DNA of 64,000 nt. Source: an uncultured bacterium (lineage in GTDB: Bacteria > Bacillota > Clostridia > Oscillospirales > CAG-272). Shown here piece after piece: positions 27,605-31,766 of this stretch. The DNA is taken from positions 1 to 64,000 of the forward strand of contig CAMEJM010000003.1 in assembly GCA_945920215.1 (NCBI GenBank). Direction: 5' to 3'. Every line of letters starts with the position of its first letter. Positions within the stretch are counted from its first letter, which is position 1. The position numbers and the translations under genes were made by a program. The notes beneath the pieces are model-generated. The model searched no databases. It had not been told where the DNA came from and saw only the letters and a list, made by a program, of their open reading frames with translations.

Positions 27605-28189
27605 TCAAAGTGGAATCAATACGGAGCCGTTGCGGGCAGGGTCGTCCGCCTCATGGCTGACCCCGATGACCAAACGCTTCTCGGATTCCCGTATGATGAC
27701 GGCGGAGAGAATGTCCCGGTTCTGCTTGTCAAGCTCCTTGAACGGTTCGTCCAGCAACAGAACGTCGGCAGGGTAAAAAACAGCGCGCGCAATCGCCGTT
27801 CTCTGCTGCATACCGCCGGAGAGTGCCTGCGGGCGTTTCGATAAGTCTTCCTCGGTAAAGTTCATCGAGAGAAGCAATTCTGCGGCTGCCTCTTTGACAG
27901 CCGCACGGTCGCAACCGCGCTTTTCGTTGACGATGGCAACATTTTCAAGCGCTGTGAGATTACCGAACAGGCGCTTGTCCTGAAATAGAAGGGAGCAGGA
28001 AGCATTGCCGGTTACGGAGCCGGTAAAGTCCCGATCCAGCCCTGCGATGATTCGTAAGAGAGTGGTTTTTCCGCGTCCGCTGTCTCCTGTCAGATAATAC
28101 AGACCGCGGTCCGGGAATGAGTAGGAGAAATCGCTGAGGACGCATTGCTCCCCAAAATATTTTGTTACATTGTGAATCTCAAGCGACAT
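27605..28189 (-). CDS. ABC transporter ATP-binding protein (nitrate/sulfonate/taurine-type)
   Basis: LTGDSGRGKTTLLRIIAGLDRDFTGSV, LSGGMQQRTAIARAVFYPADVLLLDEPF. Confidence 0.9.
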   Translation of the reverse strand: MSLEIHNVTKYFGEQCVLSDFSYSFPDRGLYYLTGDSGRGKTTLLRIIAGLDRDFTGSVTGNASCSLLFQDKRLFGNLTALENVAIVNEKRGCDRAAVKEAAAELLLSMNFTEEDLSKRPQALSGGMQQRTAIARAVFYPADVLLLDEPFKELDKQNRDILSAVIIRESEKRLVIGVSHEADDPARNGSVLIPL

Positions 28190-28949
28190 TTCCGCTCTCC
28201 TTTCTAAGTTTCAGAAGCAGACGGAAGAGGTACTCGAACAGCAAACTGATGAAAATCACGGTAAGGGTCCATGCAAAGAGAAGCGTGGAATCGACGTTCC
28301 ATGATTTTGCGTCCCAGATGGCATAGCCGATGGAGTCCTTTGTTTTGACGATAATCTCCGCCGCGATACCTGCTTTCCACGCCAAGCCGATGCAGTTGAC
28401 CAGAGCGGCGGTAGCATGCGGGAGAAGGGCGGGAAGATAGCAGGTGCGTACCCGCTGGAAAAATGTCAGGCGATACAGATATGCAGCTTCCAGCAGGGCG
28501 CCGTCGGTGGATTTGAGTCCGGTCAGAGTCCCTGTCATCATGACCGGCGCAACCATGAGCGCCGCAATGAAAACCGGGAGTTGTGCGGAGCCGATGAAAA
28601 CCCACGCCAGAATGATAAAGCAGGCGACAGGGGTGGCGCGGATGACGGAAAACAGGGGAGAGAGCAGGGTGCGCACGGTATCGGATGCAGCGGAGAGGAT
28701 CCCTGCGAGGAAGCCGACGATCAGACCGGCTGCGGCACCGAGAGAGATTCGCAGCACGGAAAGACCGACGGATTTCCAAAAAACAGCCGTGCCGAGCAGT
28801 TGCCCCAACGCTTTCAAGACCGGGAGAGGCTTCGGCAGAATCAGCGGAATGTCAAAGGCGGCTGCGGCGATGTGCCAAAGAAGAAAGAGAATGAGCGCGC
28901 CTGCCGTCAACAGAAGCGGTTTGCGAAACCGATAAAAAAGGGTTTTCAT
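28179..28949 (-). CDS. ABC transporter permease (SsuC/TauC-like)
   Basis: EAA-loop-like AAYLYRLTFFQRVRTCYLPALLPHATAALVNCIGLAWKAGIAAEII; overlaps the ATPase gene. Confidence 0.9.
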   Translation of the reverse strand: MKTLFYRFRKPLLLTAGALILFLLWHIAAAAFDIPLILPKPLPVLKALGQLLGTAVFWKSVGLSVLRISLGAAAGLIVGFLAGILSAASDTVRTLLSPLFSVIRATPVACFIILAWVFIGSAQLPVFIAALMVAPVMMTGTLTGLKSTDGALLEAAYLYRLTFFQRVRTCYLPALLPHATAALVNCIGLAWKAGIAAEIIVKTKDSIGYAIWDAKSWNVDSTLLFAWTLTVIFISLLFEYLFRLLLKLRKESGNVA

Positions 28950-28957
28950 TATAAGAA

Positions 28958-29983
28958 TTAATTTGCGTTTTGTGCGGCTGCGTAGAGATTACCGGCAACG
29001 GTTACCTTCGGCTCCGGAAGAACGGCAATTGTTACAATTCCTTGGGCTATGACATTGGGCAGAGTATCGAGGTTGTATTCCATGCTGATTTCGGCTTCCA
29101 CCCCCGCTCTCTCTAAGATATACTGGAGTACCAGTTTGGGAGCCTGTTCGGGCACATAGATGGTTTTTCCGGCAAGATCGGAAAGAGAAGAAACGGAGGT
29201 GCCGTTTGTGCAGACATACAGCACGCCGAGGGTATTGATAGCCAGCATTTGTACGCCTTGATTTGACTGCGTGTAAACATTAGGCGCGGCATTGGTGGGG
29301 AGGGCGGCTATATCCACGTCCCCCTTGACAATGGCGGGTATGATAGTCGTAGGACCGTCATATTGGGTAAAGGTGTACTTGCTGTCTGCGTCGGAAATCA
29401 TTTTAGCCATGCCGATACCGGTTGTGCCGGAAAAGTATCCGACGCGAATCTGATTTTCAGCGCTTGCAAGAGATTTATCGCCGGTGTTGGCATAATAAAA
29501 AGCATCGTCGGGAGAATTAAGGGACAGAGCGTTATAAAATCCCTGTGCGGCTGCTTTCATAGCAGCGCCGTCCATGTAGGCAATGTTGGAGCGCGGGATT
29601 GCCTGCTTTGCCACATTTACGTTCGGGAGAATTCCGGCATTGACAACCATTTGAGCGGCTGTATTGATATTCTCCTCATTTTTAATGAAGTCAATAGAAT
29701 TTTTATAATCGGAAAGGAAACTTGCCAATTCGTTTGTATGGCTTTCGGCAAATTTCTTATTGACAATCAAGCACCCCTGTACAAGCTCTGTGTCGCTGAC
29801 CTTATCCCATTCTTTTGTCAGGTCAAGGGCTACCGTATAGCCGGAGGACGTGGGGGAGTTGCTGTTTTCGTCGTTCCCGCCGGCACTGTCCTCATCGTTC
29901 GGAGTTGTAGAATTTGCGCAGGAAATAAGGGAAATACAGAGAAAAAGAATCAGTGTAAATGCGAGTAAAATGCGTTTTTTCAT
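28958..29983 (-). CDS. ABC transporter substrate-binding lipoprotein with domain halves in permuted order
   Basis: Lipobox LISC; residues 48-166 match the usual C-terminal half (YTVALDLTKEWDKVSDTELVQG...PDDAFYYAN), residues 177-341 the usual N-terminal half (NQIRVGYFSGTTGIGMAK...VLPEPKVTVAGNLYAAAQ). Confidence 0.9.
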   Translation of the reverse strand: MKKRILLAFTLILFLCISLISCANSTTPNDEDSAGGNDENSNSPTSSGYTVALDLTKEWDKVSDTELVQGCLIVNKKFAESHTNELASFLSDYKNSIDFIKNEENINTAAQMVVNAGILPNVNVAKQAIPRSNIAYMDGAAMKAAAQGFYNALSLNSPDDAFYYANTGDKSLASAENQIRVGYFSGTTGIGMAKMISDADSKYTFTQYDGPTTIIPAIVKGDVDIAALPTNAAPNVYTQSNQGVQMLAINTLGVLYVCTNGTSVSSLSDLAGKTIYVPEQAPKLVLQYILERAGVEAEISMEYNLDTLPNVIAQGIVTIAVLPEPKVTVAGNLYAAAQNAN

Positions 29984-30654
29984 GATTTGTTTGCCAACCT
30001 TTCAAGTTCATTTTGATTACAAATAATGATGTTTCCCCCGTCCATTGAAATGATTCCGCGGGCAGCAAGACTTTGCAGCTGGCGGTAGAGTGAAGCCCTG
30101 CCGATGTCGAGGGAGGAAGCAACTTTGCTCATGTTCGCTCCGCTATGTAAAGTTTCCTTTCCGAAATAGTCTAAAATGAATTTAGAAACTTTACTTTCCG
30201 TGTTTCTGCCGGTCAGAGTATCCAGCTTCTCGTTCAGAAATCGAATCCTGTTGCTAAGAAACCGAATATGGGAAATGGCGGCGGAGGGATATTTCTCAAA
30301 CAGAGTGCACAGCGCGTCTTCGCTGATCGCAGCGGCAATACATTGACCTTTTGCTATGACGGTGGTAGGGAAGCGTTCACAGCTTCCGAACATGGACGCA
30401 GCGCCGAAACAGTCTCCCTCGGAAAGAGAATTGAGCAAAATATGCTTGTCCTCACACATTCGCCACACTTCCGCTTTCCCGGATAAGATGCATAGAAGCG
30501 TCGGAGAAAAATTCTCGCCGGATAATATGGTTTCGTTCGCTTTGAATTCACCGATAGAGACGGTCAGCTCTTCTATCGCTGCTTTCCGTTGCTGATTGTC
30601 GAGAGATTCAAAGAGATAACATTCTGACAGAACTGACAGATATTTTTCTTTCAT
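29980..30654 (-). CDS. Crp/Fnr family transcriptional regulator
   Basis: Cyclic-nucleotide-binding-like fold GEFKANETILSGENFSPTLLCILSGKAEVWR..., C-terminal HTH MSKVASSLDIGRASLYRQLQSLAARGIISMDGG; ATGA overlap with the SBP gene. Confidence 0.92.
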   Translation of the reverse strand: MKEKYLSVLSECYLFESLDNQQRKAAIEELTVSIGEFKANETILSGENFSPTLLCILSGKAEVWRMCEDKHILLNSLSEGDCFGAASMFGSCERFPTTVIAKGQCIAAAISEDALCTLFEKYPSAAISHIRFLSNRIRFLNEKLDTLTGRNTESKVSKFILDYFGKETLHSGANMSKVASSLDIGRASLYRQLQSLAARGIISMDGGNIIICNQNELERLANKS

Positions 30655-30670
30655 TTTGTTCTCCGAATAT

Positions 30671-30714
30671 GTCTCATATGAGACAATTTTATACTTAAAA
30701 GGAGAAAATGTCAA
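30671..30714 (-). promoter_or_regulatory. Promoter plus palindromic operator of the Crp/Fnr-SBP-ABC operon
   Basis: On minus strand: TTGACA (30709-30714), 17 bp, TAAAAT (30686-30691), then perfect palindrome GTCTCATATGAGAC (30671-30684). Confidence 0.75.
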
Positions 30715-30917
30715 GGCGTTTCTTGGAGAAAATGCCATATATATCAAGCAGCGGTTTGTGAAAATGCACGAAATTTTATCTCAAATTTAAAATTTGGCGA
30801 TAGCGTTTGCTTTTTATTCTTTTGTATGTTATAATAATTATACTTTCCGCGGAAAACATATGAATCCGCGTTAATTGATAGATGAAAGACGGCACATAAC
30901 GTGCTTGAGATAGATAA

Positions 30918-31766
30918 ATGTTTTTGAATATTTTGGCGCAACTTCCGCCGCTTTTGGCGCGGACGTTTGTTTCGTCGTTTTTTTCCGCCTTTTCAGAGCG
31001 AATTGCCTCTGTAAACTGGTTTGAAGTCGCCTTGATCGTTTTGATCGGAGCAGCGATTTCCACCGTCTTTTTCCTCCAACGCAGCTTTACGTACCGCTGC
31101 CTTGCCCTGAACACCTGTATTTGCGCCGCCATGCTTGTCGTGTCGGTGATATTTCAGATTCGTTTTTTGATGTACTTTTCACTTGCCGTTCTGCTGTTAT
31201 TTGTGATTCTGTATCAGCAGGAACTGCGTGAACTGGTACTGAAAATCAGCGGAGCACGTGCTTTTTCCGCCAAACGTGCAGGCGCAACGCTGGATATGCA
31301 GCGCGAAGCAATTGACGCGGTTTGCCAAGCCGCGGTTGAGATGTCCCGCAACAAAACCGGCGCCTTGATTGTCATGGAACGGCACATTAAGCTTGACGAT
31401 GTGGCGCGCTCCGGGATTGAGGTGGACGCAAAGACAAGCCCGTATTTGCTCCGTAACGTTTTTTTCGACAAAGCACCTCTTCATGATGGTGCTGTCATTA
31501 TACGCAACTGCCGTATCTGGTCCGCCGGATGTATTCTTCCCCTGACCTCCCGCACGGACGTCGATCCTGATCTTGGGACCCGTCACCGTGCCGCCATCGG
31601 GCTCAGTGAGATTTGCGACGCCGTCGTTGTGGTTGTTTCCGAAGAGACCGGCACGATTTCTGTGGCATACCAGTCGGTTCTCACAAGAGATTATACATTC
31701 CGCACGTTGCACACCACACTCACCAAAAACCTCTTGCATGAGGATGAAGAAACGACAGAGGACTGA
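30918..31766 (+). CDS. cdaA: Diadenylate cyclase CdaA (membrane DAC)
   Basis: Three N-terminal TM segments; FFDKAPLHDGAVIIRN (DGA motif) and GTRHRAAIGLSE (RHR motif). Confidence 0.96.
   Translation: MFLNILAQLPPLLARTFVSSFFSAFSERIASVNWFEVALIVLIGAAISTVFFLQRSFTYRCLALNTCICAAMLVVSVIFQIRFLMYFSLAVLLLFVILYQQELRELVLKISGARAFSAKRAGATLDMQREAIDAVCQAAVEMSRNKTGALIVMERHIKLDDVARSGIEVDAKTSPYLLRNVFFDKAPLHDGAVIIRNCRIWSAGCILPLTSRTDVDPDLGTRHRAAIGLSEICDAVVVVVSEETGTISVAYQSVLTRDYTFRTLHTTLTKNLLHEDEETTED

Follow-up and report, generated by a model that had tools for sequence, protein, structure and literature searches.

The window (the whole 64,000-nucleotide stretch of DNA analysed here) encodes a substrate-binding protein (SBP) that very probably is a working ABC-importer component of the type II NMT1/SsuA kind, with a chain circularly permuted in place within its operon. 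That the protein is a natural circular permutant is supported by its homologues, by profile coordinates, by its predicted structure, and by a conserved operon context. The permutation has recurred about ten or 11 times, at the same operon position and at two cut sites, within one bacterial family; this recurrence was missed by the first-pass annotation of the locus. Most natural circular permutations are one-off, ancient events that are recognised by comparing distant homologues. Repeated permutation of one gene is rarely seen, and it allows tests of what causes circular permutation and what follows from it. Several of the permuted SBPs have canonical sisters that are 60-72% identical, with the operon context fixed. 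About ten independent events among close orthologues amount to a natural experiment run in replicate, from which one can learn how permutation comes about, which cut sites are tolerated by a two-lobed fold, what linker it requires, and whether a shift of the anchor point affects transport.

Order of the two halves in the window protein

The first-pass annotation described a complete lipoprotein ORF with a signal peptide and a LISC lipobox, in which the family segments are swapped. The ORF is as described, and the segment coordinates given for it (residues 48-166 at nt 29486-29842, and residues 177-341 at nt 28961-29455) are correct to within 1-2 residues (Table 1). Cys22 is the lipidation site.

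Table 1. Features of the permuted SBP locus in the window, and loci of the site-B permutants
Feature	Residues	Position	Strand	Basis
Permuted SBP ORF, NMT1/SsuA-like lipoprotein, ATG to TAA	341 aa + stop	28958..29983	(-)	
Signal peptide and lipobox LISC	1-22	29918..29983	(-)	Sequence; predicted helix 3-17
Gly/Asn/Ser/Asp linker from Cys22 to domain, disordered	23-48	29840..29917	(-)	pLDDT < 50 for residues 21-46
Family C-terminal half, placed first (YTVALD...DAFYY), begins at cut site A	49-164	29492..29839	(-)	C-half HMM 2e-48; profile coordinates
Inner linker, old C-terminus to old N-terminus, ANTGDKSLASAEN (13 aa)	165-177	29453..29491	(-)	
Family N-terminal half, placed last (QIRVGYFSGTTG...LPEPKVTVAGNLYAAAQNAN), stops at cut site A	178-341	28961..29452	(-)	N-half HMM 4e-62; TIGR01728 31-164
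Cognate ABC permease (BPD_transp_1), not rearranged		28179..28949	(-)	
Cognate ABC ATPase (ABC_tran)		27605..28189	(-)	
Crp/Fnr-type regulator upstream, cNMP-binding domain and HTH, start codon uncertain		29980..30747	(-)	
Site-B permutant of G069, behind signal peptide, same operon		L037:1273-2277		
Site-B permutant of G778, behind signal peptide, same operon		L109		

The swap itself was confirmed by homologue matches and by the positions of public profiles, and it goes beyond chance. When the window protein was compared with 59 relatives, nearly every homologue was matched in two pieces whose genomic order is reversed. For instance, the match to residues 178-330 in G003 is located upstream of the match to residues 51-166; the match in G030 is collinear over residues 48-337. 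Similarly, positions 31-164 of TIGR01728 match residues 202-330, positions 179-235/262 of NF040727 match residues 53-110, and positions 151-212/252 of PF02621 match residues 46-112, such that the protein matches profile ends in its first part and profile starts in its second. HMMs of the two halves are found in the order C-N in the window and N-C in nearly all relatives, and the window protein covers positions 2-163/169 of the N-half HMM and 2-126/126 of the C-half HMM, with nothing else lost. Additionally, residues that are invariant in canonical proteins (G52, T54, P95, N97, W221, G232, and others) are retained in the permuted ones at a constant offset, and sister loci of the two kinds are collinear in their DNA apart from the two exchanged halves.

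The match to PF09084 (4e-6, 27.3 bits, cutoff 20.5) places the protein in the NMT1/SsuA-like family. Its match to TIGR01728 (6.5e-7) lies under the curated cutoff of that model, and the SsuA subfamily name was therefore not given. Because the halves do not stand in the canonical N-to-C order, the protein was filed as a permuted variant of these SBPs. With canonical NMT1/SsuA-like SBPs (PF09084, TIGR01728; 3hn0, 2x26 SsuA, 6ssy TauA) it shares homologous halves, the invariant residues, and the same permease/ATPase operon; it differs from them in its swapped halves, its new termini, and the 13-aa linker that bridges the old termini.

The AlphaFold model of the window protein, which is a confident one (pLDDT 86.6, pTM 0.80, from a 13-sequence alignment), and that of a canonical congener, G083 (pLDDT 88.6), point to the same arrangement: the predicted order of strands and helices in the former is an exact rotation of that in the latter, and the modelled chain has the bilobed type II fold. 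Cut site A, at which the new termini open, is the loop between the helix following the LPEP strand and the VALDLT strand. Foldseek respects chain order. The best PDB match of the permuted and canonical models alike was 3hn0, to which the permuted model aligned over 178 columns (TMq 0.35, about half its length) and the canonical model over 301-304 columns (TMq 0.66-0.69, full length); against 3hn0, SsuA, and TauA, the canonical model aligned over about 300 columns (TMq 0.59-0.69). As a warning, annotation and structure searches that depend on chain order, such as profile HMMs and Foldseek, detect just half of such permuted proteins.

The native tail had been thought to be shortened by the fusion of the old termini. 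This reading did not hold: the same short tail occurs in the unpermuted proteins of G026, G024, and G032, and G030, G383, G550, and other permuted members retain the SIGG tail. The two patterns among relatives together rule out the short tail, which lacks the SIGG segment, as a fusion scar. As a separate observation, QGC occupies residues 69-71 of the window protein, and the Gly-Cys of this LVQGC stretch is invariant in the permuted set and mostly kept in canonical proteins. The stretch falls where the SaoB (seleno)protein model NF040727 matches the window protein.

Operon context

The signal peptide, the lipobox cysteine, and the adjoining permease and ATPase genes are those of an ABC importer binding lipoprotein, and the operon context shows the protein to be an ABC importer component. 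The SBP start codon overlaps the stop codon of the regulator by 4 nt (ATGA, 29980-29983). With permease starts picked by script, a 4-nt stop/start overlap between the SBP and permease genes is the commonest junction in canonical relatives and is kept by several permuted genes. The genes are thus tightly coupled, and therefore the permutations took place inside a coupled operon and left both junctions undisturbed. The permuted relatives have a collinear operon around the SBP (Crp/Fnr-like regulator, SBP, permease, ATPase), the Crp/Fnr-type regulator being present at other permuted loci as well.

Upstream of the operon, at window positions 30918-31766, lies a gene that by eye resembles diadenylate cyclase (CdaA-like). 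A CdaA-like gene again occurs near the permuted SBP in G033, G030, and G069, and the neighbourhood is therefore conserved. No riboswitch or other Rfam element was found near the locus.

Permuted relatives

A permuted SBP is carried by 18 genomes of one bacterial family, scattered among canonical sisters. The first-pass annotation had suggested a search for homologues with the same order, and these were found: the site-A order of the window recurs in 14 other MAGs (G030, G383, G663, G696, G724, G802, G709, G813, G820, G815, G550, G662, G631, and G722), of which G030 has the same order and the same operon as the window. A partial copy in G033 also fits. There, two contigs break off within the SBP gene; the signal peptide is followed directly by the C half, and the permease comes after the end of the N half. 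In G069 and G778, which belong to two different genera, the cut lies one helix-strand unit earlier than site A (site B). The inner linker is 9-13 aa long in all complete site-A members.

The swapped order is not the norm of the family, a possibility that had been raised as a refutation. Among 80 named GTDB loci, 72 are canonical and eight are permuted, and every sampled locus outside one clade is canonical. The permuted named loci come from roe deer, goat, sheep, and yak gut Clostridia and from SIG679; the canonical ones include the cultured Clostridium carboxidivorans, C. drakei, and C. homopropionicum.

Every permuted member is a MAG, and short contigs are common; on that ground an assembly mis-join or a decaying rearranged gene copy could be suspected. 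The chance of this is negligible. The same cut is present in G033, G030, and thirteen other permuted MAGs, which excludes a local assembly error in practice, and the MAGs stem from at least two sequencing projects (the RGIG series, and SIG679 with its NODE contigs). Additionally, the reading frames are full, with lipobox and stop, the operon junctions are conserved, and each genome has only one SBP copy (the window genome, of 1.59 Mb in 33 contigs, is 98% complete). For permuted sister pairs, dN/dS was taken only where dS was estimable, and was 0.07 for G709/G813, 0.08 for G663/G696, 0.10 for G820/G815, and 0.17 for G724/G802, with dS near saturation for G663/G696 and G820/G815. The permuted genes are under purifying selection.

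Independent origins

Trees were built from the halves concatenated in canonical order, and thus from un-permuted sequences; the changes of order on them count events rather than directions, and in some cases it is uncertain how many events there were and which way they went. The genus tree has three changes, and one clade for the window, G033, and G030 was rejected (p-AU 7e-4), as was one for all four permuted rows (2e-4). The family tree of 99 rows has nine changes, all within one 54-row clade (100/95), and a dense tree of 94 rows has 11, with 11 independent canonical/permuted pairs on starred (well-supported) branches. Well-supported clades that mix both orders include G550/G516, G820/G810, and G815/G770+G812, together with G778 in g37 and G069 in g1; G662 groups with four canonical g183 congeners that are about 71% identical over the N half. 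In genus g42, one to three events are indicated, a single clade having a p-AU of 0.17 in one test and 0.033 in another.

One ancient permuted gene or paralogue, spread by horizontal transfer or sorted by differential loss, would account for the one cut site and the near-equal linker length that are common to all site-A genomes. It is, however, a highly improbable source of the pattern. The permuted genes cluster with canonical congeners and not together, such that a single clade for all site-A members was rejected (lnL 755 lower, p-AU 4e-6); a single clade for the two site-B rows was likewise rejected (p-AU 1e-4). The tree of the permease, a gene that is not rearranged, also has 11 changes, with permuted operons again scattered beside canonical congeners. 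Furthermore, permuted genomes have a single SBP copy, and there are two cut sites rather than one.

A single early permutation in the ancestor of the clade, with many later reversions, would agree with the confinement of all permuted genes to one 54-row clade (100/95), and parsimony counts do not fix the direction of change. Even so, this history is very unlikely. It needs about 11 changes against nine (hand count, 99-row tree), the exact original termini would have to be restored, and it still implies about ten permutation events. In addition, the five permuted g44 members are nested inside canonical g44 (100/98, 100/97), as are G069 and G000/G033 among canonical members. This nesting favours repeated gain from the canonical order.

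Relation to known permuted proteins

A permuted SBP is already known: TpMglB-2 (Tp0684) of Treponema pallidum is a naturally circularly permuted ABC-importer binding lipoprotein, termed 'Type Ic / Cluster Bc', with homologues in Gram-positive gut bacteria, and its authors raised tethering as a possible reason for the permutation (PMC4990184). The window protein resembles it in being a permuted ABC-importer lipoprotein with a bilobed fold retained, here by prediction. Its profile and structure matches are to type II NMT1/SsuA/TauA proteins and not to Type Ic. TpMglB-2 is a sugar-binding protein of type I (cluster B), presented as one family, with a permuted part that is poorly conserved in sequence (PMC4990184), whereas the type II NMT1/SsuA-like SBPs described here are permuted in about ten recurrences at two cut sites, and both of their halves are alignable to canonical sisters at 40-72% identity. 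Neither a type II permuted SBP nor such recurrence among orthologues was found in the open-access literature searched, the coverage of which was incomplete; what is new here is the type II kind and the recurrence.

DNA methyltransferases and saposin/swaposin are the textbook natural circular permutations, arising by duplication and partial loss; duplication intermediates are documented for the methyltransferases, and the usual model invokes new start and stop codons (PMC3320104). In contrast, the gene in the window keeps both original ORF ends, no intermediate was seen, and events of its type lie among close orthologues within one operon slot.

Proposed mechanism and function

Each event probably began when part of the ORF was duplicated in tandem and in frame, after which the first N half and the last C half were lost, again in frame. 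Such a route would leave both ends of the gene unmoved, with the signal peptide at one and the stop/permease junction at the other; in the window protein, the old termini are joined by the 13-residue linker and the new termini open at site A. The collinear sister loci, the retained ORF ends, the inner linker, and the new C-termini are better explained by duplication with loss of the outer halves than by gene fission and fusion or by the gain of new start and stop codons.

About 1,059 genome scans, run at various thresholds, turned up no duplicated intermediate, and no duplicated or half-truncated form was found among loci scanned with the N- and C-half HMMs or as longer collinear matches. G009 and G086, suspected from long matches to be partial duplications, both proved canonical. 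A comparison of the DNA of the inner linker with that of the 5' linker, of which it might be a relic, gave no consistent signal, G696 and G802 being weakly above shuffles. With neither an intermediate nor a clear relic in the linkers, we only infer the duplication step.

The ligand would still be bound between the two lobes and delivered to the same permease, and the lipid anchor would join the fold in a different place. From what is known of type II folds, we take the tether to enter now near the hinge, where lobe 2 ends, and canonically at the first strand. Tentatively, the operon slot could be a permutation hotspot, in which either frequent tandem duplication within the gene, as a property of the locus, or selection on the position of the lipid anchor drives repeated and convergent permutation, with only two cut sites allowed and a near-fixed linker of 9-13 aa.

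The inner linker often keeps a few of the residues that precede the first strand of canonical mature proteins (e.g., PDTSLE). The new C-termini are Ala-rich, at 36% Ala compared with 21% in the canonical loop (over rows that are not independent). Independently permuted site-A proteins end in Ala/Asn/Gln-rich stretches, such as AAAQNAN, AAAAATTK, AAQAQK, and AQANAPQK, and these tails look convergent, or like relics of old C-terminal xAK/xAQ codons.
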